Positions 6,106 through 60,295 of a stretch of DNA of 64,000 bases are shown here, piece by piece. The notes below the pieces were generated by a model. It worked only from the letters and a program-made list of their open reading frames with translations, had not been told where the DNA came from and searched no databases. This stretch comes from Clytia hemisphaerica. Lineage: Eukaryota; Cnidaria; Hydrozoa; Leptothecata; Clytiidae. The translations under genes and the position numbers were made by a program. The stretch is from positions 1,302,769-1,366,768 of the forward strand of contig CACVBU010000508.1 of assembly GCA_902728285.1 (NCBI GenBank), read 5' to 3'. The first letter of the stretch is position 1. Every line of letters starts with the position of its first letter.

Positions 6106-6440
6106 TGTAATATACGTCGTGTATTTGTATTCTTATCATGTAATATATAATATAATGTAATATGAGGTGAATACAGACGCTCTCGTATTGTTTTCTGACC
6201 AGCCACCAGAACCGTTGGAAAACCAACGGATCCGGCGAGACTCGAACTCACAACCATGCCATTCGCGGGCATTTGCTCTACCATTGAGCTACGGGTCCAT
6301 GTGGAACCCGATGACTCAATTGCCACTTTGTAGAGCTGGAAGTGAATTCTTGTCTACTGACTGGTCAGAGACGATGAATTGGGAGAAATCCATCTCCACA
6401 TTATTCATGAATAATGTAATATACGTCGTCTATATGTATC
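6106..6440. repeat. tRNA-derived repeat flanked by a GTAATATACGTCGT duplication
   Basis: GTAATATACGTCGT plus about 20 similar following bases occurs near 6107 and near 6416, bracketing the tRNA-like segment at 6228-6298. The arrangement suggests a SINE-like unit or a segmental duplication around it. The downstream body on the minus strand has a short hairpin (CCGTTGGTTTTCCAACGG). Confidence 0.5.
6228..6298 (-). tRNA. tRNA-like sequence, probably a tRNA-derived SINE head or pseudo-tRNA
   Basis: Read on the minus strand it folds as a cloverleaf: acceptor GGACCCG with CGGATCC (one mismatch), D arm GCTC-AATGGTA-GAGC, anticodon stem ATGCC/GGCAT, and T arm GTGAG-TTCGAGT-CTCGC. The internal A box (TAGCTCAATGG) and B box (GAGTTCGAGTCTC) of an RNA polymerase III promoter are visible. 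The anticodon loop reads CGCGAAT, with G where tRNAs have the invariant U33, and the acceptor stem has a mismatch, so I doubt it is a working tRNA. A tRNA-derived retroposon is more likely. Confidence 0.6.
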
Positions 6441-22175: not shown

Positions 22176-22748
22176 TTAAACTTTTCGACATTTCGAATTG
22201 AATGTCTCTGCCACACCACCTTTTTGTTGTTTTAACTTCTCATAATCATGAGGGTGAGCCTTTGATGCCCTTTGCTCGATCCTACTCACGCGAGTAGGAG
22301 AAAGGGGTTGGTAAATTTTCCTTTGGCCATCTTTGTTCGATTTTCTCGACTGATATGTGTAGCGATGGCATGCTAAATCAGTCTCAGTGAAGACCCTCTC
22401 CAGTTCTTTTTTGATAAATGTTTGGGCCCGGTTAGCTGTTCTTCTTTTTTTCGCAGGTGGGAGAGGGCTTTCATCTTCGATTTGTAGATTTTCATTTTCA
22501 TTATTTTGATTATCTGAGAAAATTGATATGTCTGGTGACAGTAATGGGCTCAAATTAATATCAATATCAAGAGGTGGGGTTTGACTTTCTACATCATCAC
22601 GACATTCTACCAGGATATCTACATTAGCCATTGGCTCCACTGGCTGCTGACTACCACTACCACTGCATACGGATTGGGAATGGTTTTGATGGGGTTTGTT
22701 GTTCGGTTTTATTGGTGATGTTGTTTTTTGTTTTTGTTTTTTAACCAT
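22176..22748 (-). CDS. BEN-domain protein, interrupted host gene (3' part)
   Basis: The frame runs from the Met codon at 22748 (MVKKQKQKTT) to a stop at 22176, 190 residues. The N-terminal part is polar and low complexity (Asn/Gln/Ser), with PPAKKRRTANRAQTFIKKEL as a likely nuclear-localisation stretch. The C-terminal part, FIKKELERVFTETDLACHRY through PLSPTRVSRIEQRASKAHPH to the stop, matches a BEN domain (LxxVFxxxxLAxxxx...L.P.RV..I). BEN proteins bind DNA and recruit chromatin repressors. The frame is also open upstream of this Met to the border of the inserted element at 22777. Excising the element with one CG copy continues the frame into the exon at 29937-30046, so the Met is probably internal and the gene is disrupted or now uses a new start. 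Confidence 0.65.
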   Translation of the reverse strand: MVKKQKQKTTSPIKPNNKPHQNHSQSVCSGSGSQQPVEPMANVDILVECRDDVESQTPPLDIDINLSPLLSPDISIFSDNQNNENENLQIEDESPLPPAKKRRTANRAQTFIKKELERVFTETDLACHRYTYQSRKSNKDGQRKIYQPLSPTRVSRIEQRASKAHPHDYEKLKQQKGGVAETFNSKCRKV

Positions 22749-22773
22749 TATTAAATTTTTTATTTCTTTCACC

Positions 22774-22803
22774 TCGCACCGAATGGGGTTTCCTAATTTT
22801 GAC
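22774..22803 (+). repeat. Left terminal inverted repeat of the 7.16-kb element
   Basis: It begins TCGCACCGAATGGG; over 30 positions 26 match the complement of 29910-29939, with differences at single scattered bases. If the flanking CG is a target duplication, the element proper starts at CACC (22777). Confidence 0.85.
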
Positions 22804-23524
22804 GTTCGAATCATAAACGTCAAAAAGACGGGGGTAAAACGTTCGAAATCACGTCAGAAATGGCGCGCGGGTGATATTTAACGATTTAACCCACTGTAAT
22901 ATCACTTTTTTAGGTGTTTATAATCACTCTTATTTATGAAATATATATATTTCTGAAAAATACAATAATTTGTCTACAATTTGGTTTTTATTTGAACTCT
23001 TTATTCCAAAGATTTGTGTACTACTACAGCCTCTGAACTTCACTGACTTTTTTAACAAAAATCTGAAATTCTATCGTGTTCCAAGGTTTACAGTGAATCA
23101 TGGCAGTTTTATCTTTTAATAGTGACAATCGTTTCTGAAAGTTCAGGCTTAGGGCTATTCAAAAATGTATAATAACAATATACTTTATGGTCAACATTCT
23201 ACAGAATTTTCGTTTTGAAAATGTTGCATGTTTTACGTCGAAAGCTTCAATGTTTGTTTACAAGTCAGGGGAAAACCCGTTTTTAGCCATATAGAATAAT
23301 TAGAGTGACAAAACATTCGAAAAGTATAAACAATGGGCTTTCCAAATATGTATGACATCATAGGGGTTTTTTGTGAACAATATACAGAATTTCCCTGTAG
23401 AAGAAGTGACATAAATTATGCGATGTCAGTTTCTTAGGAGTTTGAGTAAACAAACAGGACGTCAATTTTTTTTCTTGGAGATTTTCATCGGAGGGAGAAA
23501 TTTTCGACGAACGCCAAAATTAAA

Positions 23525-26500
23525 ATGTCTTTCTTAAGCTCTTTCAAATACATTCCATCTTCGCAAATTAACAATACGGAAGATACATTTGAAATGAAAG
23601 GAGAGCTAGTTGTTTATTTGAGCCAGCTAGGTTTTGCAGGAGCTAAAACCTATGTAGAGGACCTCCTGTTAAAGTCTGGTTGGAATGGCTCTTATGAGGA
23701 ATCAACCCATAAATCAATCAAAAAGACTGGCGACAGGGTCAAGCAAAAACTGAAGAAATGCTGTTCTACACAGCGGTATGAAATTAAAGGAAAATGGCAC
23801 AGTTTTCGCACTACTGTTGCAACAATTCAGGTACGACACGAATTTATTCTTTTCATTCATTTTCTTCCCCCTCCTTCGTCATAACAATTTTTTTCATCGC
23901 CAAAGTTTGTATTAAAATATATATTGTTATTACTCTCGGGTACCTTGGAATAAGGGGAGGGGGGGAGGTGGTAGAAAAATCTCAAAACTAAATAAGCGCG
24001 GGGGGGGAGGGTGGTGAATTAAATTGTCTTGGGTGAAAAAATTGGAGAATGAAGCTAATACAGAAGAATTAAGACAAGAGGAAGGTACTCTTAGGTGTTA
24101 AATAAACGGTCCCCGCTTGTTAATTTTTCGATTTTTTATTAACCACCCCCGGACCTTATTAGGAACCCCCCATTTATCAATTTTTGAAAAAATTCCCAGC
24201 TACAAAAAGTAAAGTTCCTTGTTTTATTCTAAAAAGCCTACATTTAGTCTATTTTGAAAAATTTTTCCAACGCCCCCCCCCCATTTATTTGGCACCTAAG
24301 AGTACTTGAAAAGTATTTTTCCAAATATTATTAAGCGGGGAGGGGGGGGGGGTAATTAGGTACCCGAGAGTAAGCTATTTCTTTAACATGATATTTACTA
24401 TTTTTGTTTTACTATACAATACTTTTTTTCTAGAGTCAACCCTCAACACAAAGCACCCGTCAAGCGAAACCATTTGAAGAATTAGGACAACGTCAAAAAT
24501 ACCGACGCCTCACTCAAGTCCGGTAAAATGTTTATATACTTGATTACAAAAATGCACATATAAAATATAATTTCAATAGTCGAGTAGCTACACTAGAAAA
24601 ACTCAAATTAATTGGATTTATAATATGTCAAAATTGCGAGAGGTAGCCAGGATCGGTAAAACTGCAGTATGATAACATATATATGGGAAACGGCAATATT
24701 ATGCTTTTATTTAGGGAAAGCGTGACCAGATCCGTGGAGAAGTTCGGCTTTACAACAGCGCAAGTCAAATTAAAAACCAAAATGGCGACTAAAGTCACAG
24801 TTTCTTGCGAAAAAGGTAAATTAGTTGGCATGAAATTCGGCAGTTCTTCTTCTAAATTGTTTTCAGGAGAAACATTTACAACTCCCAAGGATTTTCAACT
24901 TGCTTTAATGCAAAGAAAAAAGTATCTAGTGTCTCTAGAAAATTATATAATATACATTATATATCATTTAGGTTCATCTCTGTGGTCGGAGTCGAGTACT
25001 TCATCTTCCCAAGGATCTTCGGAATCTTCACAGCTATCTTCGGAATCCTCGCAACAATCTTCGCAACAATCTTCAACAGAACCATCCAGCGAGTCGTCAT
25101 TTCAATGGAAGACAGGTAAAACGAATAAAGTTTTTGTATAAGCGAAAGTAGATGGCTGGAACCGAAGTTTTTTCGCAGCAAATGATGCGCTTGCAACAGG
25201 TAGGTTCCGAATATCGCTCTTGACATGGTTTTAAATTTTCTTCTCCAGGCTGTGACATGACTGAAATGGAAAGGGCAAAAGCTGTAATTTACGTTCTCGA
25301 TCGGTATACCGTATCTGTGAAAGCATATCACGAGCTATCGCAAATTGCTTTTGGGCTCCCAAGAACGCATTTGGTGGAAAAGACACAAAAACGCATTTCA
25401 GGGAGCTTCGATATTGAGCCGACTCCTGGAGAAACGATTGGTGCTCAGATGAGACTGATGGGTCAATTAGAAACCGACCTAAGGGTGAAAAAAGCTGAAA
25501 AGAAAATTATGGTCAGTCTCATTATATGGATCTTCTGTTATTCTGAGAAAAAAAAATCTGCTTCCATTTCTCAGAAAAGAATATTTCTTTTTTTATAAGA
25601 AAACAACTTGCCTTCTTTCCCTCAGATAAGATATCCCTTAATTTTTCTAAGGAAACTTGTTTTTGAGAAAAGAAAGTCGCACTCGTTTTCCGAGAAAAGT
25701 TTTAAAAAATTGCTCCATTATTTTCTGAGAAAATGTAAAGCCTTCTTTTCTTCTTGGCTTGACCCTGTGAGACTAAAATGGTTAATTTCTTGCTAAAACC
25801 AATACTTTTTTTTAACCACAGCTTAAAGTCAGTGGTGATGGCACTAAACTGACTCGAAAATCGAACCTTGTTGTGTTGTCCTACTCGATCATTGAGGAAT
25901 CTGGTTCATTTTACAATGAACTCAGTTCTGGTGAGTAAACCAATTCTCTGATTCAAAGAGATAATAAGAATTGGCCTGAAAAACTGTAAATATTGTGGCT
26001 GTACGCAATTTTGTACATTTGTGCATTAGCTGAATGCACAAATGTACAATCTGAAGATAAGATTACATTTCTATGTAGGAAACAATGCTATTGGAGTTGG
26101 AATGGCCAGTGAATCATACGAGTGCGTAAAAGAATGTTTCAAAGACATAATATCAGAAGTCGACGAAATCGCTAAAAATCCTAAAATTTTGGTTGGTGGC
26201 AAAGAGTTAGATGTTGAATTGTTAATTGGTGGAGACTACAAAGTAAGTGTAGTGATATCTAGTGCTTGCTCATGTATTTGGAATTATCAAGGCTCTCTCT
26301 TCTTTACCAATTTTGAAAATCAACAAATGCCTAACAAAAACCTTCATCATCAAAAAAAAGGCTCTAGAAATTTTTGATCAACACTACTAAGCCATCCATA
26401 CATTTATCTCTCAAGGTAAAAAACTTGACTTTTAAACAGCTGAGAATTGATAAAATTGTATTGTTTTTATTACCTTTTCTGAAGTTTCTCCTGATGATTC

Positions 26501-28360
26501 TTGGGATGAAGCAAGCAACGTCAGACAACGCGTGTATATATTGCGACATTACAAGGGAGAAGAGGTGAGCATGACAACCTAAAATTGATGTGATAAATTT
26601 GCTTATAATATGTAATCTTTCAAAAACAACCGACATAAATCATTAATTTGAGGTTTTGAAAAACATGAAAATTGCTAAACTTTCAAAGAGACCGCTAAAC
26701 AATTGAATACAGGGAAATAAAGCTTACATTGATTGAAATTATAAATTTTGCTAACCTTTCTCTCAGACAAGATCCAACATTTTCTGGAAAAAAGCGAACC
26801 ATGAATGCAAATTGGTCCAAGCAACGTGGATGCAAGGAAGAACCAATTTTAAAAGATGTGCCAATCGAGCATTATTGTGTGGATGAGCTCCATCTTCTGC
26901 TTCGCGTGACCGATAGATTGGAAGACGGGATGTTTCACTCAATCTTTGATCTGGACGAGGTATTTGCCACTCTGTTAAACATGAGAATATGAAAAGTCAC
27001 TCATAGCTTGTTTGGACTAGTGTCTGTCCCAAAAAAAATTGACAGTCAGCACATTTTCATTCATTGCACTCAAAGGATTCAAGATAATAGTTAAAGATTT
27101 TTAAATTTAAAGGCTTTTAAATCTTACAAAATTTCCACTAAAATTGCATTTTACAGAACTAATTTTCGTGGTTGATACTCATATATTTACTCCTTCAAGA
27201 GCAATGTGTTGAAATGTGTGGCATTTTTTATTGGAACAGACTTAAGTATTAAATGAAAAGCGGAAAAAGTTAGTGATTTGACATTCCTTCAATTTTGGGG
27301 TATTGTGGGGGTGGGGATGTTGATAGTGTAGTTTTCACTTATAACATACCGGTTTCATTATTTTTAGAAAAATGGAAACGAAGAGATGCGTTCAAAACTG
27401 ATTGCGGCAATGAAGAAGATAGGCATCTCGCTCAAATTTTGGACAAACAAGAAGAACAAATGGGAGTGGACTTCATTGATGGGTAATGACAAGAAACGCA
27501 TGTTGGCAAAGTTACCAGACCACTTTGAAGAATTTTTGCCAGACAATCAAGTTGGTCCTACGAGACAGTTGTGGAAGGTAAACACCAAACCATTCTAAAT
27601 TACAGTTTCCTTAAATTTGTTGTGACAAAAATTATGCCATAATGCAAAATTCTTAAACATATTTTCTTACCATTCCAGGCTTTTGAAGAGCTTTACACAA
27701 CAATGAATAAGCCAGAATTGACAGACGCTGAGATCGACGACTTTGAATCGAAGGTAGGCTTTTTCCATTCATTACCACTGAATATTTGCGTTGAATGTGT
27801 GTTTACAATGAAAATTCTGTGACTGCAAACCTAAAAGAGATTTATTTTGTATACAGTAGGCTAAATAAATTACAATGAAAATTCTGCGACTGCAAAACTA
27901 AGAGATTTATTTTTATATAGGCTATAGCATGGGTTTACAAATTAAAGAAGATGAATGGCTGTGGTTATGATTGGTCGTTCCCGGTAACCCCATACATCCA
28001 CATAATGGTGAAGCATATACCAGACATATTAAGAAAGTACAAAACTTTGAGAATATTTTCTGGCCAAGGTAAGAAAATTTCTAGCATCGCCACTTTAACT
28101 GTAAGCTATCCTGACTGACATGCAACCTACCTTATCTTACAGGCTTGGAAATATTTCAAACTGTACTTGTTTTAAACTGCACTTGTTTTATATTTGTAGG
28201 AGTGGAGAAGAAGAATGACGAATTCAGAAAATTTTTTCACTCGAAAATAAATCGGAGAGATGCATGTGTTGATTTGTTGGGTGTAGAGAAAAGACTGCAA
28301 ATGCTCCAAGAAAATGGGTTTGAAAGACAAAAGAGATCTTACCATCGGACAGAAGAATGA
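23525..28360 (+). CDS. Spliced RAG1/Transib/CMC-like transposase (about 14-15 exons)
   Basis: Predicted exons are 23525-23830, 24434-24522, an uncertain one near 24580-24650, 24715-24815, 24972-25115, 25179-25199 (21-nt microexon), 25249-25511, 25822-25930, 26079-26242, 26485-26564, 26767-26959, 27368-27577, 27679-27753, 27921-28068 and 28200-28360. All have AG/GT borders, and phases agree from 24715 to the stop, giving about 700 residues. A Ser/Gln-rich linker (24972-25115) precedes the core. Candidate catalytic residues are D in SGDGT (25837), D in GGDYK (26234) and E in GQGVEKKND (28205). Zinc-type ligands are CIYC (26533, 26542) and H....H in YIHIMVKHIPDIL (27999, 28014). Spacings D-19-C-3-C and H-5-H-20-E equal those of RAG1. 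The family fold is an RNase H-like DDE cut-and-paste transposase acting in the nucleus. No stop or frameshift was seen in the core. Confidence 0.75.
23933..24370. mobile_element. TA-flanked MITE (CTCTCGGGTACC ends) in intron 1
   Basis: The ends CTCTCGGGTACC and GGTACCCGAGAG have TA outside each (23931-23932, 24371-24372). G-runs follow the left end. A second MITE (24088-24302) is nested within it. Related end fragments occur at about 1399 (ACTCTCGGGTACCTAATATA) and 22123. Confidence 0.75.
24088..24302. mobile_element. TA-flanked MITE, CTCTTAGGTG family, copy 1
   Basis: The ends CTCTTAGGTGTTAAATAAACG and CCATTTATTTGGCACCTAAGAG are inverted, with TA outside (24086-24087, 24303-24304). It is the same family as the element at 37183-37485. 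It is nested in the intron-1 MITE. Confidence 0.8.
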
Positions 28361-28583
28361 TCTTGGAAGGTTCTCAGCCACATAAAATTGTAAATAGGAA
28401 CTGATTATATAAAGCAATCATATACCTCAATTTTTACAGTAAAACAACAAATCAAGTAGCCTCTCGTACACTACTGTATCTGTTTAAAACTTCTCAGCTA
28501 ACCCATGCACTTTCTTGACTTTGATCTGCAGAAACTTGCAAGATCAGTATATATATATTTCATTACATAAGAATCTACATACA

Positions 28584-29692
28584 TTAAAAATTTATAGTAT
28601 CCTTGAATATGGAGACAGAAATCCTTTGAGACAAACGCTGCTTTCGGTCTTTCACCTCACCAGCAGTACTAGAAGTTTGATAAAGCTTTGGAGACTTGGA
28701 CAGAAAGCAACGGATAGTGATAGGAAATACTATCTCTCTTTTTGTCCCTCTCTTGTTTATGAGACTTGAATGCCAATTTTTGGGAAACCAGTGAGGGTCA
28801 AAGTCATGTCTGTAAAGTAACTTTGATCCTCTTGCTATGTCCTCCCCCCTCCCGTTAAAAAGATACCTGAAAATGGCAACTGGAAAATCTAGCTGCTTTA
28901 CACTCTTCAACCGTTCTTTTAGGGAAGCCTCAAAACAAGTGAGAAGACGTTCAACAAAAAATTCAACTTGCCTCAAGTCTACTTCTGGTTTCTCCCAAAG
29001 TCTATAAAATAAATAAATAGAACTAAATTCCTTGTAAAGAATAGACCTAATTTTAACAAGATAAGTTTGAGAGACTGTGAATTAGTTCAATAAAGCTTAA
29101 GAGAATAAATTCTAAAATCTAGCCAATCAATTAAGCTTCAACCCCAGTTTGAGGTATACTTGACAACATTAACAAAAGAACTGTATATATCTTAACTTAC
29201 TGCAGTAGCCGATCATCCAGCAGATTTTCTCGTGGCTCCCAAGTGCAGTCTTCAGTTCCCCAACCAGCCCACTTCACCAAATAATAAGAAGACTTTCCAA
29301 TCTACATAATCAGGGAAAAGGCTCAAGAGTTAGCAAGAATTCAAGAAAAGTCAATAAATACATCCTCCAGAACTCTATGAATAGTTTCCATTAGGTAATT
29401 GCCTTAAAACCCACAAATATTGCAGATTTATGTTCTCAGAGTCATGCCTTAAATCTTCACCCATCTGTCTGATTAGTGTAGTGTGAGCCAATTTAAGACA
29501 GAGTTTTTGAAACACTACAGAATTCATAGTCAGAAGAAAAACACTGACCTTTTTCTCTCCAAATATGTGCTCAGCATTAAATACGTCTTTTCCTCTTTTT
29601 TTGCGACGATCCATCATAATTTCATGCTCTGAAGCACTCGAACGATTGTTGAAGGAAACATAATGAATGTTGTTTCTTCTTCGACTTTCCAT
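28584..29692 (-). CDS. Chromodomain protein, three exons, convergent with the transposase
   Basis: Exons on minus are 29692-29549, 29301-29201 and 29001-28584, with GTCAGT and GTAAGT donors. Phases agree (0, then 2) and the product is about 220 residues. The chromodomain spans roughly residues 37-82: [33 protein letters not shown], then [14 protein letters not shown]. The aromatic cage residues (F/Y, W, W/Y) and the VKW.GW...TWEP core are of the HP1/Polycomb type that reads methylated histone H3. The C-terminal 135 residues have no recognised domain; a helical part ([20 protein letters not shown]) may mediate dimerisation. The gene lies inside the transposon and ends about 220 bp from the transposase stop, so it probably travels with it and could bias insertion or excision towards particular chromatin. 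A captured host gene is the alternative. Confidence 0.75.
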
Positions 29693-29909
29693 TTCGATAA
29701 TTTGATGGTACTTCGTCAAGATCCAATTTCCAAATGAAAAGGCGCGCACATTTTGCCCACGTGAAAAAAAATTCTGATGCAATATTCATTCAATTGTTCT
29801 TTTGACCAATCACGCGCGGAGAAAAAGATGCGAGAGCCAATCAAATCGTAGTAAACAAACATAGAAAAGACGGGGGTCGTGTCAATCATGCGTCAATCAA
29901 ATTCTACAT

Positions 29910-29939
29910 GACAAGATTGGGAAAGCCCATTCGGTGCGA
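29910..29939 (-). repeat. Right terminal inverted repeat of the 7.16-kb element
   Basis: Read on minus it begins TCGCACCGAATGGG, matching the left repeat at 26 of 30 positions. The next sequence inward is unrelated to the left side except for the shared AAAAGACGGGGGT motif. Confidence 0.85.
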
Positions 29940-30046
29940 TGATCTCTTTGTAAATTTTTGAAAGGTTGTCGTTGGCGAATGTTATAGATTTTTTGGAGTG
30001 TTTCCATTGATTTTTTGATGCTCTCGACATCTTTTTGTAGAGTTTC
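29937..30046 (-). pseudogene. Host-gene exon cut by the transposon (5' side of the BEN gene)
   Basis: Minus-strand sequence after a strong acceptor (TATTTTATCAG) runs into the right terminal repeat. Two frames are open. One reads ETLQKDVESIKKSMETLQKI and looks like a coiled coil. The other ends NDNLSKIYKEII and, joined over a single CG to GAGGTGAAAG (22775 downward), continues as EVKEIKNLIMVKKQ into the BEN frame. The second frame also fits the phase of a possible 38-nt upstream exon (30742-30705, IGRTESGGSGK). If the coiled-coil frame is the true one at the exon start, a one-base change in the A6 run near 29995 would link both. Confidence 0.5.
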
Positions 30047-31070
30047 CTGATAAAATAGAACAATTAAGTTTACTTTTTCCCCGTTGCTGAAAAATGTACT
30101 TTAATGTCAAAATATTTTGCGACTAGAAAATTCTCGACTTTAGAGGATTTTGGGGATTATGGGTCTAAGTGTGCTATTCTTGAGTATTATATGGTGAATC
30201 ATGTAAACTTACCAAAACGGTGTTTTCTGAATTTGAATTCGGTGGAAATAATGTATCGTCTTTTTCTAAAAAAAATTTATTGGTTTACATGTTTTTTTTT
30301 TATAAGCATTGCACTTATAAGCATATCTAGGCTCAGATATGGGAAAAAATTAAGCATATGCTGAGCATTACAGCTACTTTGTTTTTTTGTGAAGCCATTT
30401 CAAAGCAAATTTCCCCCTTTCTCCAGTCTCGTTTGTTCTAACTAGGCAAATTTAAGCATATTTTGTGCCTGATTCACTATCTTTTGTAAGCATCCTCGAA
30501 AAATTTATGTTAGGATATAAGCATAACTCAAGCATTTTTTCAGCCTTATTATAGCTCTCAACCTAAGCATCTCTGAGCCTGTTTTCGCATGCTTATAAAA
30601 AAACATGTAATTCTATAAATTCCAAGACCTGATCTTCTTGGGATATTTCCTTTATAATCCTATCCTAGGGTACTACAAGAAAACTACAATTGATTTGAAA
30701 TTACCGTTTTCCACTTCCACCAGATTCTGTTCTTCCGATGTCCTGAAAGTTGATGGTATTTGTTTTTATGTTTCCTGTAAATAAGATGGAAATTAATTTT
30801 AATGAAAAAAAAAAAATCGAATCGAAGCACTCTCCTGAAAAGTCTCCCGAAAGAAAGTTTCTAAAAACTAGATTCGTACCATAGGTTTTCGCCCCATTCG
30901 GAAGCTATCAGAAAAATTTGTTTTAAAGTGATGAATTTTGAAGAAAGGGTAGTTATCAACTTCAGTTGAGCTAGAATCTGAGGCAGGGGCAGTCTGGAGA
31001 CTTGAGATTGAGTCTGAAAACTCAATATTTTTATTTTGATTTAGAATGGAAGTAAATTAACATGTCTTAC
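30047..31070. other. Intron-like sequence
   Basis: Apart from the possible 38-nt exon at 30705-30742, I see no coding sequence. Short AAGCAT-rich stretches occur at 30340-30600. Confidence 0.35.
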
Positions 31071-34000
31071 ATTGCTATGCATTTTCACAAATTTTCTGTT
31101 TGTTGATGCTCCATCTGAAACTGTTGAAACTACTTTCAAGTTGCAAGATAATTCCAAGATCTCAACTGCTTTCCAAAACAAACCATAAATTTCTGAACAC
31201 ACTGCTCCATCAGTTGCAAAATTTGCAAAACTGTAGGATAGAGGGTTTTTAACACTCTTAACCATAAATACCATAACATGTGTTGCTAGTTTGTCCACAT
31301 CATTCAGCAGCATGCTTTCATTCATGACTGCATCTCCAAAGTCAACAAATCCAACAAGATTTCCTGAATTTTTGTCAAAGACAAGATCCTCTTGGACTTT
31401 CATTTCATCAATCAAAATGGAATCATAACGCTCTGACTCTGAAAAGTTCTTTGTTCTTTCTGTCAGATCCTTTACAATTTCAGGATTGAATCCTTGTTGT
31501 GGCGTTATAACATTGCGATATCTCCGTAGAGTCCTTTGACTTGGGAGCTGTAAGATTCCAGTACCGTCCTTCGAGTCAAGCCTCAACTGTTCATAAGCGG
31601 ATGAAGACTTCGCTGCTATGGAGAGACAATATTTGATAATAGCTGGATGGTAGCGGATTTGTCGATTGTCACTGGTCCTCAAGTATCGTTGCTGCTCCTC
31701 CCAAAACAAACGCAAAAATGGAGGGACTTTGTCTTTCGGAATACCTGATAGTAAAGTAAAAAAAAGATTTTAAAAGTTATTTATTCTCTCATTTCTAACT
31801 AGTCTTATATACCATCAAGAAAGATTTTTAATAAAGGGAAACTTGGCATGTATCAATATTTTTAGTAGGCAAATCATATCTACAGTTCATTTTCCTCACC
31901 TTTAAAGATATCAACAAAATCTTGACCAATTTCATCATCAATAGTAACTGAATCTTTCTCCAAGGCAGTTTTGAGCTTTTCACTGAGCTCAACATTTTTT
32001 TGTTCAAGAAGTTTGTTGATTTGTCGTTGCTCTTGTACTGTTGCTTGTAACCGTTCAGGCGATGTCATAGATAACGGTGCATTGGGCTTCACAGGTTCCA
32101 TTGCTAATTTTCGTTTAGCATTATGTTGTGAACGCAATCAAATTTCCTTGCTCTGACAATTAGTGCATTTTCCAGATTTGATCAATAATGGGCAGCATGA
32201 AGCACGAAGATATTCTGACTGGAAGAGGGGACCAGAAATGGTGTCAATAGGGAATGTAAAGTTCTTGGAAATCATGTGATGTTGTAAATCAACGGCTTGT
32301 CTGAATTCAACAAGGTTCAGTCCTAAAAGATAATTGAGCAGGTATTAGTCTAAAAAAAAAAACCTCACTAATCATGGCACCTTAGCACTAAATAGACCTT
32401 TCAGTAAGGATGACATGTTGAATAAATATTGAGTCCAGTAGGAAAACATTGATACATCCATTCATGATTATGAAAACATATATGATGCTGAAATTATGCG
32501 TAGAATGCATATATAGACAAATATAATTATTCAACATATCCTCCTTATTGACAAAGGTATATGAAAAACAAATTGATAACTGGATGAAAAAGATATTTTA
32601 AACATATTTCATTTTCTAGCTTTTGTTTGCCATTCAAGAATAGACATAAAACAATAGGTGATTAAGCACAGTATGGATACAAATTAAAATATGCCAATAT
32701 CCCCAAACCCTAACCAATTCCATACAATAGACCTTTCGGATAATGCTGCAGCCATATTGAAAGATAGGCAATAAAATCCTTTAGTATTGACTACTTTCGC
32801 TAGCAATTAAAGTCTGTCCAAATATAATTGGCAGTGGAAACAAAAATGCCTGTAACTTTTGATAGTCAAATATAATTATGGAAATTTCTTTTGCTTGTTT
32901 CAGAGAATCAAAAGCGCTATATTTAAATGTATTTTCGGTTGAAAAATTCGCGATTTTTATCGGTTAAATTTGCGATTGTAAAAATTGAGCTTTTTTTCTA
33001 CTTATGCTATAACGGTCATTTTTACACCAGTGGTAGTTCAACCTTAGATTAAGAAGTTTGTTAAATTTCAAGGCAAACAGAAAAGTCCTTCGGAAGATAT
33101 GGGACCCGAAATACCCCTTGGTAGCACTTTTCAGTGAAATATCAAATCTCCAACTTATTACTAAAAACGGGGGTAGTGATATGATTGATAAAAGAGTTTT
33201 TCGATCATAACACATCAATACACGATCTCTTTAATGACCTCATAGCCAAACTGTGTTTAGTGTTTTGGGAATTAGCAAAGTTCTTTAGACTTAAAAATAA
33301 CAAAGGCAATATAAGTTCATGCTTATCTTTTCAATAAAAACAATTACACTGTGATTTCACTTTGTTTTGAAATAATCAATGATACCAATAATACCAATGC
33401 ACCAACACTTAACACTTTCCAACTTTTAGTTGCACTGTTCAAAAAATATAACATAACCCCCGTTTTCAGTAATAAGTTGGAGATTTGATATTTCACTGAA
33501 AAGTGCTACCAAGGGGTATTTCGGGTCCCATATCTCCCAAAGGACTTTTCTGTTCGCCTTGAAATTTAACAAACTTCTTAAGCTAAGGTTGAACTACCAC
33601 TGGTGTAAAAATGACCGTTATAGCATAAGTAGAAAAAAAGCTCAATTTTTGCAATCGCAAATTAAACCGCTAAAAATCGCGAATTTTTCAACCAAAAATA
33701 CATTCAAATATAGTGCTTTTAATTCTCTAAAACAAGCAAAAGAAATTTCCATAATTATATTTGACTATCAAAAGTTACAGGCATTCTTGTTTCCACTGCC
33801 AATTATATCTGGACAGACTTTATTAAATTGTACAATTGTACAGCTTACCTTCACAAAGATTGAATTCCTTGAGAAGTAAGATGAATTTACTGAAAGTCAT
33901 ATTTTTGAAGGATCCACAAGCATCATGTATGGGATTTTGGCTTGGTAGTAACCAGCCATAACATCTGATCTTGTATGTTAAATCATCTTGAATAAATATT

Positions 34001-34936
34001 TGGTACTTTGGAATAATGTACTTTGAATCTTTGTAGCTTCGCAACATAATCATTGCTTTCGCGCATCTGCCAATTGGAATCAAGTTTCAACTTTCCAACA
34101 CGTATTTTGAATTCGTCAAGTCCACTGTAGCAGGGTGCTGGTTGAGGTACTGGAATTGAGTCCAGTGCTTCTTGATATTCTGCTCGTTTGTCTATTGAAG
34201 ACATAGATCGTTCCACAACCGATGTTTTCCTTCCAATTTTGGAAGGTAGATTCAATGTTGGCAAACAATTTTCACGAATAACAGTGTTTCGCACATGTGA
34301 ACAATAAAAATAGAGAAAAAACTAAGTTTCGTGGCCTTCAGTTCAGAAGAACTTTTATATGGTCTAATGATCAGTTAGAAAGTCACAACCGCCACTGAAT
34401 TTTAATGCTCTTAGCAAACAAAGTCATCCACATTACAAATGGCTTGCATTAACAAATAAAATAAGCCATTACACTTCCACTTCCAAGTAAGCCTCTTAAT
34501 CAACAGGAACTGATTAAAATGCAATTTTCCTTTCAGGAGAGTGGGAGGAAGTATCACTTAAACTTTGAGACAGCAATCTACCAAACACAGGCAGTGCAAA
34601 AATACAGAAATGTTTTTGTCGTAGTGAAAATAAAAGTAACAAGTGAAAATAAAAACAGTACAGTGAAGCAATGGTACACTTACAGTGATATAAATCTTCT
34701 TCTCTGAAATGCAGTCCACAAATGAAGACATTATTTTTTTCAATCATTGCTTGAAACCTTGCATCAACAACTCTATCTTTCGTTATGATGTTTAACATAT
34801 CTTTCCTCCATTTCTCCTGTCCATGTTTCTTTCCACTTGGTATTCTCATAATAGGAATATCTTTTTCGTTGCCATTTTTCTTGTTTTTGTTTCTGGATGT
34901 AGTACATCCAACAATAGAACAGTTTCCTCCAGTCAT
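31071..34936 (-). pseudogene. THAP-domain P-element-type transposase gene, decayed and lacking the C-terminal half
   Basis: Exons on minus: 34936-34684 begins with MTGGNCSIVGC and ends in VFICGLHFREEDLYH, a C2CH THAP zinc finger. A second spans about 34294-33849 (LPTLNLPSKIGRKTSV, then IPKYQIFIQDDLTYKI and RCYGWLLPS). The third, 32322-31900, has CTNC, SMTSPERLQA and a leucine-rich coiled coil. The fourth, 31744-31071, has FWEEQQRYLRTS, RYHPAIIKYCLSIAAKSSSA, ILIDEMKVQEDLVFDK and SDGASTNRKFVKMHSN: the RNase H-like core with the first two acidic positions. Lesions: a frame change near 34035 between KVHY and IIPKYQ, an in-frame TGA at 32140-32138, and no clear acceptor for exon 2. The C-terminal part with the last catalytic acid was not found, so the protein cannot transpose DNA. 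The THAP part may still be expressed. Confidence 0.75.
32809..33821. mobile_element. 1.0-kb foldback element with about 360-bp arms in a THAP-gene intron
   Basis: The arms (32809 to about 33170 and about 33462-33821) are inverted complements with a few differences. The ends read AAAGTCTGTCCA and TGGACAGACTTT with ATT outside both (32806-32808, 33822-33824). The central loop is about 290 bp. Open frames containing NYHWCKNDRYSISRKKAQF appear on both strands because of the palindrome and are not evidence of coding. Confidence 0.85.
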
Positions 34937-35509
34937 TTTGATCAATATATGCCAATTTTACTTCAAAACATCACACAACTTCCACTGAAGTCCGCCATTT
35001 TGAAATTTTCTATCCCACTCGCACGGCCTGGGCACTAATAAATTCAAATTGAAAGAGTTCGCGGGCCGGAAAACAATAGCGCTATTGTTCGTTTCCAGAC
35101 TAGTGTTTCTTTCATATGACTATGATTTTACATATTCTCACCCATGCTGAATTGAACCTTTAAATCAATAGAATGTTTATAATGTCGAAAAGATTTGGCT
35201 CACAAACTGTACAGTTTTTAGTTCTTGTCTACTCTTGCGCAAATGAAATTGGTATACTTCTTGAAATGTTCTTGAAATACAAATAACATAACTTAAACAC
35301 AAACTGAAGTGACCTTTTCCAAATTTAAATTAATTTTTAATCGACAGCTAATTATTGAGTAGTCGCGATTGTAAATGACATTACAGTACAGATTTCTGTA
35401 ATGTCATTTACACTCGAGACGACTATTCAATCTGACGATTAAAATGTCATTAAGATTTGGAAAAAGTAACTTCAGATTGTTTTGTGTTAAATAAAAATAG
35501 GAAAATAAC

Positions 35510-37574
35510 CTGGAGTTTTTGAATTATCTTGGGAGGCCCTTTTTTCTTCCCTTTCGTCATGATCATTTGTAGGTTGTTCACAACATGACTAAGCTTGCAG
35601 ATTTTACCTATGATAGAAAGAAAGAAAGGTATAAAAAAACTCTGTGTTGCTCTCATTAAAGGTGTTTCAAAACCATGCAAGTTTTCAAAGAAATTGCAAA
35701 TTGTATTTTGAAATAAGAGCCCTTTTTAGGTTTATTGGTCAAAATTTGAATTTTTTTCTCAAAGATTGAGAACTGACTCCCTAATAATTTAGCACATAAA
35801 GGTTGGAATGAAACGTTGAATTAAATAGGATTTTTTACCTGGTGGTTTACAATTCTTTTTTTGTATAGAAAAATAGATGACAGGATCAATAATCGAACGC
35901 AGTTTTGAATAACATAATCGAAGAGTATATGAAGAATAATTTATTACTAAGATTGTAAAGTACTTTTTATGAGCAAACAACCTCCTTTTAGGGCATTGCT
36001 GGAGGCTGAAAAAGTTGGTCCCAGGTTGCTTACTCTTTTGTGCTTAAATTGTAGAAGGGGGATCATTTTGCAATTATTGGAAAAGAAATCACCCCATATC
36101 ACTTTATAATGACCCCACCCCTATTTTATGACTTTCATGCTACGAAGTGCCGAAATTGGTCAAAAGCCTTTATTTTCCTTGGGATTTTTAGCAAAATCAG
36201 ACCAATAACACTTAATTATGACCCCCCATTTTATTGATTTTTATCTGAAGTACCCACGCCCTTCGTTTATTCCACCCCCTAGTTAAGCACAAAAGAGTGA
36301 ATCCAAAAGGAATCAGTTAATTTATTAAAAAGGTTTTTTAAAATCATGATGATCATTTTAAAGTTTCTCAAGATTTTATTTTCTTGAAATTTTTCCCTGT
36401 AGGGGTCAAAATATATTTTTCTTGAAACGAGAATAACTTTCCTTTCAAATCAATAAATTTCTCAAAACCAGAAAACCTAAATCTTAAACTAGAAATATTT
36501 TTCCGACCGTTTATATTTTCTCAATAAGAGATTGTGAATTCTTAAAATAAGAATCATCTTCCTATGTAAGAATTTTTACAGTGTGCCATTCAAAATTTTT
36601 GAGACAACCCACTCGCGCAAAGCCATCTGCAATTAAAGAGTCTCTTGCCCGTTCGTAGTCCAGTTCCTTGTCATAATAATCCCTTGGCAAAGATTTCCCT
36701 AAGGATTGCATTGAAATTACAACCTTTGTCTAGCAGAATTGAAGAGCCAGAGCAAGTTTAACAAAGATAATAACAAGACAGAGATCATCAAAATATTTCT
36801 AACAGAAAATTAAACTAGAAAAATCAAAAGCTTTTAAGGACTACAAACTATATACCTATGTTTGGAAAATGCACACCCAGAAGTGAAACTACAAAAATTT
36901 TATCACTTACTCGAATTCGTTGAGTCTGAACCCAAAGCAAACTTGCGTGAGGTGTTAGAGTATCGAGGTTCTTGTGGAGTGTCGAGTTGGTCACATTCTA
37001 GAATATATAATTTAATATGTTTAGGAAATGGAACTGGGGCATAATTTTGGCTTCTGTCAAATTATACCTAAAAATTGTTCAACCAGTCGCCATCAAAGAA
37101 ACCTTAAATGAATTCACCAACATAAAATTTGATTTGATGAAAGTATGAATTTTGACATAGAATATTAAATAGATAATATGTACTCTTAGGTGCCAAATAA
37201 ACGGGGGGGTTCGAATAAACGGGGGGTTGGAAAATTTTTGAAATTTCAATAAACGGGGGGGACCTAATTGCCGGGGGGTTGGAAATTGTACTTATAAAAA
37301 CCCAAAAATAAGGTAAATATAGGCTAAAATCAGGCTTTTTGGAGCAAAATAAGGGGACTTCTTTTAGCCAACTGAAAATATTCTTTAAAATTAATAAACG
37401 GGGGGGTCCTAATAAGGTCCGGGGGGGTTGGAAAATTTTCGAAAAATTAACAAGCGGGGGGGACCGTTTATTTGGCACCTAAGAGTAATAGTGTGTTACC
37501 TTTAAGTTTATCTTTTATTTCTCTTTCATACTCTTCCTCGATTTCTTTGTAATCGGCTTTCTTCTTCAATTTGT
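35510..37574 (-). CDS. Unidentified multi-exon gene (five candidate exons)
   Basis: Candidate exons on minus are 37574-37500 (KKKADYKEIEEEYEREIKDK), 36997-36911 (CDQLDTPQEPRYSNTSRKFA), 36729-36580 (SLPRDYYDKELDYERARDSL, then ADGFARVGCLKNFEWH), 35998-35839 (QCPKRRLFAHKKYFTILVIN, then LRLCYSKLRSIIDPVIYFSI) and 35607-35510 (KICKLSHVVNNLQMIMTKGK). Phases agree between exons 1-2 and among exons 3-5; the 2-3 junction does not, so an exon may be missing. Composition and splice sites look real. I do not recognise the family. The 5' end and 3' end are not defined. It lies head-to-tail upstream of the THAP gene and might be another transposon-derived gene. Confidence 0.45.
37183..37485. mobile_element. 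TA-flanked MITE, CTCTTAGGTG family, copy 2
   Basis: The ends CTCTTAGGTGCCAAATAAAC and TTTATTTGGCACCTAAGAG are inverted, with TA outside both. The interior repeats AATAAACGGGGGG in direct orientation, giving poly-G runs. It lies in an intron of the unidentified minus-strand gene. GTTTATTTTGGATCCCAAGAGTA at about 39419 may be a solo end. Confidence 0.85.
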
Positions 37575-47242: not shown

Positions 47243-48470
47243 GAATCTTTACTGAGCTCTTCCATTTGGATCACTTTGCAACAAAATGGCGAAAACTTCT
47301 GAAAATATTAACACGGAAATTTCATCAAAATATGGATCCTGCACCCCAAATGAATGCTTTATAAATGAAATAATACGGGATAACGATGTCTTGCAGTGTA
47401 GGAAGTGTCAAAGATTTGTTCATTATGCCTGTTCGGAGCTTCCAGCCTACCAAGTACAGATTTGCCTTCAGTACAAAGCAAGGAGATTCGAATGTGCGAA
47501 ATGCATCACAGTCACGCCAATATTATTAGAGAAGTTCAAAACAAGTAAACAAAGAACGACCAATAACAAGGCAACAAATACTGGAGGTAAAGAGAAAGAT
47601 CAAGATGAGCAATGTGTTTTCGCTAGACTGGATAGACTGGAGAAGAAGATCGACGATCTTGTAAACAAAGATGTTGTCGTTAAAGGATCCAAACAACAGC
47701 AGACATACGCTAGCATCGCTAAAGATGAGCTAAAGAAAAAAGACCACGATATAGAATCAAAGCAACAACAGACATACGCTAGCATTACTAAAGATGAGCT
47801 AAAGAAACAAGAGGTAACGATCAAGAATTTCATCAAAGAAGAGAAAGAAGAAGAACGATGGTTAAACTTAACAAAGTACAATATCATTGTTCACAACCTC
47901 GGAGAGAACAAACATGAAGACCTAGATGAACAACGTGTAGGTGATAAGGATTATGTTGAAGAAGTTGTACAAAACCAAATGGGATTAAAGGTAAACATCG
48001 TCAGCGCAGAAAAGAATAGGAGCTCGGAAAGGACGAAATGTTCAAAACAAAAAGATGGCGACCCTTGAAAGTCGTGCTAAAGAACGAAGAAGAGAAACGT
48101 CCTATCTGGCATCAGTCCACAAATTAGAGAAAGACGAATTTTAGAGTATCCGACGATTTTTCGAAGAAAGAACGCGAAACCATCAAAGAGTGGCATAGGA
48201 AGGCAAAGGAGAAAACAGAATTACAAAAGGATGGCAGCTGGATATATAAGGTTAGAGGAAGTCCTCGGACAAAACTCTACTTTAAGAAGATCTGTAACAA
48301 ACCCGTTACTGAAAATGAAATATTGTAAAGACGACTGGTTAAGAGGCCCACCGTGCGCCTACTACTGTAAAATTGTAAAATGTTAAGCATGATTATTTCA
48401 TAGAGGTCGATAGACCTGAGAAATATATTACTGTAAATTAAATTAAATTAAAAAATTAAATTAAAAGCTT
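47243..48470 (+). pseudogene. ORF1-only LINE-type retroelement (half-LINE) with A/T-rich tail
   Basis: The frame starts at 47286 (MAKTSENINTEISSKYGSCT). It has a PHD-like zinc finger (C..CRKCQRFVHYACSELP...FECAKC), a coiled-coil/linker with a duplicated QQQTYASI(A/T)KDELKK unit, then LTKYNIIVHNLGENKHED, the conserved RNA-binding segment of LINE ORF1 proteins. The frame shifts near 48018; the ORF1 C-terminus continues as ELGKDEMFKTKRWRPLKVVL, PIWHQST, a stop near 48125, then KKERETIKEWHRKAKEK and WIYKVRG up to a stop near 48328. There is no reverse transcriptase. A short 3' region ends in AAATTAAATTAAATT-type repeats, as at LINE 3' ends. ORF1 proteins bind the retroelement RNA; such half-LINEs rely on another element's enzyme. 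Confidence 0.75.
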
Positions 48471-56329: not shown

Positions 56330-58829
56330 TCAGTTTTTGGGAAAATTTAGTCCCCTGCTAGTGATAAACTAACATAAACTAGATTTAGGGTCGCCGGCAA
56401 CCAATATCTCTAGGGTGGGAGAGAGGTAACACTTTCCGAGTCTTGAACACCGCCATCTTGGACGTTGTTTGTGCTTTCATACTATAGCCAATACCGTACG
56501 GAAACAAACTAGAAGTAGCACTACTTGCAAGGCGGGACACCCCGTTCGTTAATGATTTAGACGATTTAAACTATTAAATAATAATTGAATACATCTCAGT
56601 AAATGCCTTCTCATTACTGTTTGGATCAAAAGATGAATTAAAATTACAATTTCCAATAAACAGAAACTAAACAGCTTTTGCAATCGCAAGAACCCCACAA
56701 TCAACTAAATTTGATTATTGCTGAGTGGAAACAACTCTCAATTTCATTGATTCTCTTGAACATTGACTGTGAGATTTTTTAATTCGCTTCTTGTTCTTTG
56801 GAAACGGAGAGAATTATTCGGAGCTCAGTAAATACCTTCTCATTACTGTTTGTATCAAAAGATGAATTAAAATCACAATTTCCAGTTGTGCTTATTTTTT
56901 TAGCAATTTTCAGCCTGAAATGTTCTTAGATGCGTTCTTAAATTTTCAGACTACTCTAAATCGACAATATCATGCAAAATAAAGAGAACTTAAAATTGGT
57001 AAAATTTGGACAATATTTGACTCTCGATTTAGAAAATCCATTCCTAAGTTTGTTAAAACTGCTTGAAAAGAAGAAAAAATTGTAGTTTCTTGTCATTTTT
57101 TTCCAAACTGAGGCTGGGCATGTTCTTACGATGTTCTTAATTTTTCGACGAATTTCAGCCTCAATGCTCTTACAAACTGGGTTCTAATAAAAGAAAAAAC
57201 GTGTATGTTACTACGTTTAATAAGATTCAACAAGACGACTTAAAGTCGAAAATTTCGCATACATAATATTAGAAGATTAACAACGAAGACGCGTGAAACG
57301 TGACTCCGGCAGCATTATGGATTTTGAATGAAGCGTTACACAAAATATACACATTGTATTGTACACACAGGTCGTAGGTAGATCCAGTCTTACATAGACT
57401 TTATCCAGTCAAGCACCATAAACCTGAGGAAAATTTCGGTAAAAGTAAATTAAATTGATTTTGAAGATTTTAAACCCTTTTGACCCTTCAGTTTCAAAAT
57501 TTATGTGTTTAGTTACTGAAAAACGCTCTTAATCATGTAAAGGCTAATGCGATTGCCAAATTTAAAATAAAAATTTGATAGGTCGATTTTTAACGTTTTC
57601 GAGCACTTTCTGAAAATAAATTTTTTATTCAATTGAGCATAACTTTTGATCTAATGAATCGAATTTAATAAATGACCCATCAAAATTTAAGTTTATCTTT
57701 CTTCTTTCCAATGGAAAAGAAATGGTTCTTTTAAAATTTTTAGATTTCGAGAAAATTAGTTTCAAAGAGAGAAACTTGGCGTGGCGCACCCGGTAGAAAA
57801 GACCAGAAAACATGATAAAAATTTATATAGCTGCAGCAAGTTTCAAAAGCATGTGCTATCAAGCAGCCATTAAAAAGTTCTCACGATGAATGTTTACAAA
57901 GGCTTGGTTACACTTTTTGCACTAGCGTATTTTAATTATCAAGAAAAGCGCTGTTTTTTATCTTTTTGAGTGAGTCCACCTTTAGAATATTGGCCGTAGT
58001 ACGCCCGCAGCCGAACGCCCAGGTCGCCCATGCCATAATTTGCGCCCCAAAAATTTTCTCGCCACATACATACATACACACACACATACACGGACGACTA
58101 ACGTAATACTTTCGTCATGTGAAATTAATAATCAATTAAAAAATTATATTTCTCCTCTCTACTATATTCAATAATTATACATTTTTTTCTCAACAAATTC
58201 ATTAATTAAAATTACTTTCAGGAGAGAAATCACAAATGAAAATAACAAGTATTGCAAAATTAACTAACGTAGTATCGTGCAAATGACAAAATAAAGCTTT
58301 TCCTTCAAATCAATTAATTCAATTTTGTTTAGTCGTGATCTTACAAAATCTTTCTAAATAAACAAGTATACAAAAATTTGTTCAGATAAAACAGCGGCTA
58401 TCAGAGATCTCGGTAGAACCTCCAGTGTAAAAGTTTTTTGATTCCTTTCGACCTTAATTTGTTGTTTTTTTGGTTGCTTTACTGTTTAGGTATTGAATGA
58501 CTGAAAAGAGAATTGTAAATTTATTTCAAATATTCTAAGCGCAATTTAGATAATGAGTTTTGAGGATTTAACTTTATTTGAAAAATGTGTCCACCTTTTT
58601 GAGACACACTGTAGGTTTAAACATGTGTTTCAGCAAGCGTATTTCTCTGAGAACTCTTTTTGTTACACTTAGTATCTGTTAAATTATTTAGACCAGCATC
58701 AAACAAAAAAGAAATTCACACATTTCTATTTCTTTCATATTCAGAGAAGAAGAAGAAGAAGAAAAGACAAAATTTTCACTTCATACTTTCTGTACTTGGC
58801 TTTTTTTTCAGAGAAAAATCAAAAGGAAA
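56330..58829. other. No gene recognised; transporter upstream region
   Basis: It contains a duplicated segment (GATTTTTTGATTCGCTTCTT at about 56179 and a similar GATTTTTTAATTCGCTTCTT at about 56771), a (CA)n-like ACATACATACACACACACAT tract at about 58060-58090, and a possible mariner end TTTTTGAGACACACTGTA at about 58597. A pyrimidine-rich tract with AG at 58810-58811, 19 bases before the MFS start codon, could be a 5'-UTR splice acceptor or a trans-splice site. Confidence 0.4.
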
Positions 58830-60295
58830 ATGGCGTGGTATAATATCAGTAGAAGCATGATTCCTTGTAAAATTGCGTATTTCTTGTTAATTGCAAAAGA
58901 GTTAACAATTCGCATTAACTTAGTATTATTTCTGTTGAGTATCGGTTTATCGAAAAGTCAAGCTGGATTAATTGTTGGCTTACGGTTGGTCAGCGTTATT
59001 GGGTTTTCTCCATTCATCGGAATGATATCGGATAAATATCGGGTTCATCGACTGACGATTGTGCTTTGTTCCATTATCACTTTCATTTTCAACGCCATGC
59101 AGCCTTTCCTTGCTTTCAAGTTCGGCTCCAAAACATTCCTGTATTGCTCAGCAGGAAATGAGGAGAACCGAAACTCGACAACATCACACCTGAACACGAC
59201 CTCGTCATTCAGTACAGAATCTCACACTAGTACTAGTCCTCCTGATCAGCAAGTTTTGTTTTGGGTGATGTTTGCTGTCAATTTAATCCAATCGCTATTC
59301 GATGGCTCCTTAGATGCTTTTATAGATACTGGAGTCATGTTACGAATCAAACAATCCAATGAAAATGGCGAGAAAAATAAGTATGGACCTCAACGGATCT
59401 TCGGCGTCTCGGTCAATTGGTTGGTCCTATCATCGGGAATTATTGGATCGCATTTTTTCCGAGTGATCACGTGACTTGTTATACCGGTGTGTTTATTTTG
59501 TACGGATTTCTTTCCATTTGTTATATGCTAACCTTGCTTTGGTTGTTCCAAGGACTGAAGATTGAGGTTCACGATTTGAAGGATAGCGAAGAAGAAGCTC
59601 CACTTGAGGAGAAAGGAGAAAAAGAAAAGCTTGGACAACCGTTCCGGACAGTTTTATTTCGGACACTTTTTGAGGAGGAGATGTTAGTCATGGTATTGAC
59701 GTTATTCGGTATCGGTTGTTTAATGTCGGAACTTCTTTATTACAGTTTTCCATACCTTAAAGATCTGAAGGCAACTACCATGGACTTGAACTTATACCTC
59801 ATTATTCTTGCTGTTGGAAACTTCATTGGTTTTCTGATAATCCCGAAGCTGGTGCGTCTCGTGAAAGGTCCATTCCCCACCATATTTATATTGCTGATCG
59901 TGTTAGTGTTGCGGTTCAGCCTGGTGGCTGCTTTCAGTAACCCAAAAATAATCAGCGTTGTTCAGATTCTCTCGATTTTCGATTTTCCAATCACAGAGAC
60001 GGTCAGCTTGGAGTTTGTTTTAAAGAAATCTCCGAAACTTGTTCTTACAAGTATGTACGGAATCATCAATGCTGTTCAATATTCACTTCCCGAATGTGTG
60101 GGCAACACCCTGGGTGGATATATTTATGAAAAATTTGGTGCTAAAGTGTTGTTTTATGGTTGCTCAGTGGTCGCTGCTACACTCTCCCTCGCCCTTGTTT
60201 TATGGATTGTCAAAAGACAGATTCAAGAGACCAAACGAGTTCGAGAAAAAAATGGACAAGAATTAACTCTTGTTGAAAAGGAGTATGCGCTTTGA
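58830..60295 (+). CDS. Major facilitator superfamily transporter, MFSD6-like, with one frameshift
   Basis: The frame starts at 58830 (MAWYNISRSMIPCKIAYFLL) and shows membrane segments plus a motif-A-like loop GMISDKYRVHRL between helices 2 and 3. After an extracellular-looking Ser/Thr-rich loop, YGPQRIFG leads into the next helix, but this frame dies after GSHFFRVIT. The continuing protein is in another frame from about 59420 (VGPIIGNYWIAFFPSDHVTC) through six more hydrophobic helices to EKEYAL at 60295. A single missing base between 59403 and 59428 would join both parts into about 485 residues. No intron fits there. QR(I/L)FG at the start of helix 6 suits the MFSD6/MFS_1-like group of plasma-membrane carriers of unknown substrate. 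A sequencing error is as likely as a true mutation. Confidence 0.75.

Follow-up and report, generated by a model that had tools for sequence, protein, structure and literature searches.

We examined a 64,000-nucleotide stretch of the genome of the hydrozoan Clytia hemisphaerica (assembly GCA_902728285.1, contig CACVBU010000508.1, positions 1,302,769 to 1,366,768 of the forward strand), referred to here as the window. It contains a transposon-like element of 7160 bp, at positions 22777-29936 after trimming to its CAC tips, which carries two convergent genes separated by 223 bp. One encodes a transposase with likeness to RAG1, and the other, which begins 244 bp inside the right tip, encodes a chromodomain protein (Table 1). 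An initial annotation of the locus had proposed two intact-looking, convergent, spliced genes, and this description holds: both reading frames are unbroken (680 and 220 codons), with GT/AG exon borders in the transposase gene.

Table 1. Features of the Clytia element and its flanks, in window coordinates; counts refer to transposase relatives.
Feature	Position	Strand	Remarks
CG, left flank	22775..22776		Candidate 2-bp target duplication; palindromic, alternatively an extension of the inverted repeat
Left terminal inverted repeat	22777..22801	+	25 bp, CAC start; tip sequence CACCGAATGGGGTTTCCTAATTTTG
Subterminal motif AAAAGACGGGGGT, copy 1	22823..22835	+	46 bp inside left tip
Transposase gene	23525..28360	+	13 exons, GT/AG borders, 680 codons plus stop, unbroken, ATG at 23525
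Transposase exons 1-7	23525-23830, 24434-24522, 24715-24815, 24972-25115, 25249-25511, 25822-25930, 26079-26242	+	
Transposase exons 8-13	26485-26564, 26767-26959, 27368-27577, 27679-27753, 27921-28068, 28200-28360	+	
Presumed first catalytic Asp, D307 (SGDG)	25837..25839	+	D in 38/40, 2 gapped; assigned from motif and fold
Presumed second catalytic Asp, D390 (GGDYK)	26234..26236	+	D in 40/40; weak stretch aligned to RAG1 ..GYDEK
CxxC motif (C409, C412)	26533..26544	+	40/40
HxxxxH motif (H605, H610)	27999..28016	+	38/40, 2 gapped
Presumed catalytic Glu, E630 (GVEKKND)	28205..28207	+	E in 38/40, 2 gapped; aligned with GNE of RAG1, RAG1L
Chromodomain gene	28584..29692	-	3 exons (29692-29549, 29301-29201, 29001-28584), 220 codons plus stop, unbroken
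Subterminal motif AAAAGACGGGGGT, copy 2	29865..29877	+	59 bp inside right tip, same strand as copy 1
Right terminal inverted repeat	29912..29936	-	25 bp; reverse-strand tip CACCGAATGGGCTTTCCCAATCTTG at 29936
CG, right flank	29937..29938		Second flank CG, at exact ends

A repeat scan returned a 28-nt inverted repeat pair (22774-22801 and 29912-29939, 89%), which includes the CG on either side and one extra complementary base. Within the 25-bp ends proper, 22 positions are identical between left and right, and the first 11 match exactly. None of 200 dinucleotide-preserving shuffles of the region 22500-30200 contained a 28-nt pair with at most three mismatches and at least 500 nt apart, and the real stretch contains exactly one; the predicted terminal inverted repeats are confirmed, to the base, at 22777 and 29936. 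Exact matches to CACCGAATGGG are restricted to the two element ends in the 64 kb, and with up to two mismatches it shows no enrichment there (8 places, with 7.2 expected). The tips, CACC..GGTG, give the element the CA..TG ends of the RAG1-Transib-Chapaev-CACTA (CMCT) clade. On both strands of the 64 kb, the 13-mer AAAAGACGGGGGT is found just twice, once near each tip and in direct orientation; this pair is a second sign of organized ends, and the motif is a candidate binding site.

CG is present on both sides of the element, as annotated, but is weak evidence for a target duplication because 4 of the 13 symmetric registers show a 2-bp match. Given this frequency and the palindromic nature of CG, one copy is insufficient to fix the duplication length. 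At this single copy, flank matches of 4, 5, 6, or 8 bp are absent from every register up to six bases from the ends.

Two Clytia proteins bear on the transposase gene model. Residues 155-680 (526 residues) are identical to P0001, an uncharacterized protein of Clytia hemisphaerica, and P0002 (667 aa, Clytia) aligns end to end at 76%; because the latter alignment runs from first to last residue, it supports the first exons, which lie outside P0001. Both proteins join ..SCEKG to SSLWSES, so that 24816-24971 is an intron, and a 732-aa model with a single open exon at 24715-25115 was rejected. The intron region 23831-24433 holds a hairpin like that of a miniature inverted-repeat transposable element (24085-24305), with a stretch about 78% similar at 37180-37487, 13 kb away. 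This intronic segment (element positions ~1310-1530) gives the sole match to the element in the remaining window, where no further copy was found.

The transposase has a conserved D, D, E triad of the kind that characterizes the RAG1 superfamily, with the CxxC and HxxxxH motifs between the second D and the E. In a profile search of the PDB, the second D with CxxC (by a weak stretch), the HxxxxH motif, and the E aligned with RAG1 or RAG1L, whose catalytic residues we took as reference; D307 was placed without residue-level alignment to RAG1. The D of a VDELH motif (39 of 40 relatives) was considered as the second catalytic Asp and dropped, as the HMMER alignment with RAG1 favors GGDYK, again by the weak stretch. 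The transposase is predicted to adopt the RAG1 core fold across most of its catalytic core: a fold search matched RAG1 and RAGL with about 15% identity over the matched part, and HzTransib was also matched. Profile matches in the PDB to E 1 include no Transib chain, which we do not count as absence because the fold search recovered HzTransib. Pfam RAG1 matches occur in 7 of the 40 relatives and DUF1280 matches in 5 (best 4.3e-5), whereas P0001-P0004 lack any match to DUF1280 up to E 0.1; NCBIfam returned no match for five proteins. A SAP domain is matched in 6 of the 40 relatives, and in none of Clytia P0001-P0003 scanned singly.

Searching with residues 266-732 of the 732-aa model recovered 52 transposase relatives, none of them named Transib or RAG1L. 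Those with names, from which we assigned the taxa, belong to Clytia, stony corals, octocorals, a sea anemone, and a sponge, and many others are environmental. In a tree of the 40 matches with a length of 480 aa or more, the four Clytia transposases form one group (100/100), whose sister group (100/97) consists of Desmophyllum P0004, Oculina P0007, and the environmental P0006. Pattern matches in viral contigs (44 for the transposase, 51 for the chromodomain protein) yielded no confirmed relative of either.

The chromodomain protein is laid out as a short N-terminal motif, a CBX-type chromodomain (residues ~34-88), and a conserved C-terminal region (89-220). Pfam finds a single domain, Chromo (3.2e-12), which is also found in six of seven relatives; it is the only domain below E 0.1, and there is no Pfam match to kelch or PHD. 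Among solved structures, the chromodomain matches CBX2 best (2e-10), then CBX6, CBX8, and CBX7 (down to ~1.5e-8), with weaker matches to CBX4 and SUV39H1 (4e-8), Polycomb (6e-7), and HP1-type CBX1 (7e-5). At what we take, from CBX7, to be the aromatic cage positions, all seven rows that cover them have F/Y, W, and W/Y (an eighth is gapped), and as judged by its sequence the chromodomain is of the CBX/Polycomb type with an aromatic cage. CBX-type chromodomains read H3K27me3 or H3K9me3, and the window protein looks able to read histone marks.

The best-conserved part of this protein is the C-terminal region. Identities to the window protein, for P0053 through P0059, are 89, 73, 69, 67, 66, 49, and 61% over residues 89-220 and 80, 65, 62, 55, 65, 65, and 44% over the chromodomain, where P0059 covers nine chromodomain residues only, P0057 covers 83 of 131 C-terminal residues, and P0058 appears to be frame-shifted at its end. 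The region is without known relative, with no profile matches to E 10 and no Pfam match in any of nine members. A phmmer line at E 0.63 to a methyl-CpG-binding domain vanished when a profile was used, and we did not accept it.

As far as the protein searches reach, the chromodomain gene is not a lone gene but one of a family with several Clytia members. An initial search found seven relatives at 54-83% (three named Clytia, two with transcript-type names, two environmental), and a profile search gave 26 rows: 4 Clytia, 1 Paramuricea clavata, 1 catfish CBX6, 2 with transcript-type names, and 18 for which no organism is given. Several of the 26 have only the chromodomain in common. The Paramuricea protein (P0067, partial) keeps the N-terminal motif, chromodomain, and C-terminal region, and P0073, on a long contig, has the C-terminal region and a portion of the chromodomain. 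Support for the splice model comes from the environmental P0066 and P0070, which read through at the same intron-1 donor, and from P0059 and P0060, which start a few residues before the exon-3 border.

We favor, with moderate confidence, the interpretation that the element is a cut-and-paste DNA transposon of the CMCT group with two genes of its own, in which the chromodomain protein may dock the transposase complex on marked nucleosomes. Its components differ in strength. That this is a transposon of the RAG1-Transib-Chapaev-CACTA superfamily is very likely, and the chromodomain gene is probably an inherited part of it; that its product acts in transposition or targeting has somewhat less in its favor than against. 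More tentative is the broader proposal of a lineage of RAG1-fold transposons that bring along a CBX/Polycomb-type histone reader of their own, which would serve the transposition complex as its dedicated second subunit. Such a pair would be an independent parallel to RAG1 and the RAG2 PHD, acting via the chromodomain and a new C-terminal domain.

RAG1-type reactions comprise synapsis of the ends, nick and hairpin cutting, and strand transfer. We envisage that the transposase would pair both 25-bp ends, cut them in RAG1 fashion, and insert the element with a short stagger, perhaps at CG. Less certainly, the chromodomain protein may bind the transposase or the element ends through its conserved C-terminal region. 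It might then, more speculatively, dock the complex on nucleosomes that bear H3K27me3 or H3K9me3; such docking would direct insertion to silent chromatin or permit action there, and an equally speculative alternative is that the protein manages silencing of the element.

Several observations weigh against the favored interpretation. The likeness to RAG1 is weak (Pfam RAG1 0.034 for P0001; PDB phmmer 0.071), and Pfam has no RAG1 line to E 1 for the window protein in its 732-aa model. A structure model of the partner, made for P0053, failed (pLDDT, the predicted local distance difference test, 38.5). Linkage, empty site, and duplication length depend on one insertion, near whose ends 2-bp matches are frequent, and the evidence for a two-gene transposon comprises one complete copy and two protein families, each with several Clytia members. 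A role of the second protein in transposition is conjecture. Finally, none of the 26 partner relatives bears the name of a stony coral (18 are unnamed), yet the transposase occurs in stony corals; the association of the two genes may therefore have arisen later than the transposase family, or be patchy.

This last pattern would also fit a real transposon whose chromodomain gene plays no part in movement, a passenger that belongs to a host family of CBX-type readers and became trapped in this one copy. That only a single copy was examined and that the Clytia chromodomain relatives are recorded as ordinary predicted proteins point the same way. We nonetheless consider a passenger unlikely: the gene is unbroken and begins close to the right tip, the C-terminal region is the part best conserved, and the partner relatives, in a search that reaches only those with short words in common, are divergent and come from few named species, unlike a widely conserved single-copy gene.

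Overlapping in anatomy with the favored interpretation is a silencing-control device, in which the chromodomain protein would recruit or block silencing at the element, tuning its expression and lowering harm to the host, with no targeting of insertion. Its class of chromodomain reads repressive marks. There is a precedent in the DNA-methylation modifiers of the TET/JBP type carried by DNA transposons in several fungal lineages, CMCT included (PMC12730594). We see such a device as a minority possibility. Far less probable is a strict RAG-like, ProtoRAG-type element with the chromodomain protein in place of the RAG2-like one; the predicted RAG1-core fold, the convergent partner gene, and the CAC..GTG ends agree with it, but no 5-bp duplication was found at the single copy, the fold matches to RAG1 and RAGL show low identity, and the partner has no kelch or PHD match.

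The element sits 28 bp upstream of the first ATG of a minus-strand reading frame (22748-22176). Directly to its right, on the minus strand, are pieces of a THAP/P-element-type transposase gene (31041-34957), with Pfam matches to THAP (5.6e-5, 34517-34957) and to the N-terminal domain of a TNP-like RNase H (9.5e-26, 31044-31769), and the element possibly lies inside or close to another mobile element. An inverted repeat with 375-nt arms, 95% complementary and 265 nt apart, lies at 32808-33822. Elsewhere in the window are a plus-strand open frame (47256-48068) with a weak PHD-finger match (E 0.0023, under the Pfam cut-off), a major-facilitator-type transporter in two overlapping plus-strand open frames (58692-60295) that is probably a host gene, and a minus-strand tRNA-Ser gene with anticodon CGA (6226-6299).

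RAG1/RAG2 is thought to have descended from a two-gene transposon, the partner being able, in many lineages, to read histone methylation. If the interpretation we favor is true, the convergent partner would be a histone reader unrelated to that one, which would suggest that RAG1-type transposases were selected more than once for coupling to chromatin marks, and the role of a chromatin reader for such a transposase would be testable in a laboratory jellyfish. The parallel with RAG1 and the histone-reading RAG2 concerns design and not the ancestry of the partner. Among the papers listed by our full-text literature searches, whose scope excluded subscription papers and Repbase Reports, none was found to describe a chromodomain gene in a transposon of the RAG1 type or the CMCT group.

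Transib and RAG-like elements are described with 5-bp duplications (PMC4411706, PMC7204232). As far as its sequence goes, the Clytia element is not a Transib or ProtoRAG in the strict sense, because at this copy there is no 5-bp match in any of the registers covered. It further differs from Transib in its second gene and in the lack of a Transib chain noted above. The initial label of RAG1/Transib-like is supported for the RAG1 superfamily and not in the narrow Transib sense, given the missing 5-bp duplication and the names of the 52 relatives, none of which is Transib or RAG1L. The annotated pairing of a RAG1-superfamily transposase with a convergent chromodomain gene inside terminal inverted repeats is upheld by the ends, the predicted fold, the triad, and the Chromo match, and with it the formal likeness to the tail-to-tail gene pair of RAGL/ProtoRAG elements, which have the RAG1-core fold. 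Many of those elements have a histone-reading PHD partner, whereas the partner here is a chromodomain protein without kelch or PHD match. The sea urchin RAG2L PHD finger binds methylated H3K4 (PMC7204232); amphioxus RAG2L is described there as without PHD, so that a histone reader is not universal among RAGL elements, and RAGL duplications are almost always 5 bp, compared with 2 bp at most in Clytia.

Chapaev/Chapaev3 elements (Pfam DUF1280) share the CAC..GTG ends, and DUF1280 matches occur among the transposase relatives, in keeping with the placement of RAG1 and DUF1280 within one clade by Majorek et al. (PMC3985635). They differ in their reported 3-4 bp duplication (PMC4079192), in the DUF1280 domain not matched in P0001-P0004, and in the chromodomain second gene of the Clytia element. 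The CMCT clade has CA..TG ends, 2-5 bp duplications, a RAG1-like transposase, and CxxC plus H(3-4)H between the second D and the E; in some members an additional gene encodes a chromatin-level enzyme (TET/JBP), and ESTA has TA duplications (PMC12730594). Compared by description only, the Clytia element resembles this clade in its CA..TG ends, RAG1 likeness, CxxC and HxxxxH motifs, and extra chromatin-related gene, and differs from it and from ESTA in its animal host, in CG rather than TA, and in a chromodomain reader rather than TET/JBP. Like Ty3/Gypsy elements, it is a mobile element with a chromodomain; Ty3/Gypsy chromodomains have been associated with targeted insertion, and docking has been proposed for some long terminal repeat (LTR) elements (PMC12477816). 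If our interpretation is true, chromodomain tethering, known from LTR elements, would extend to a DDE-type DNA transposon: Ty3/Gypsy is a retrotransposon with its chromodomain fused to the integrase, whereas in Clytia the chromodomain is encoded by a separate gene beside a DDE-type transposase.

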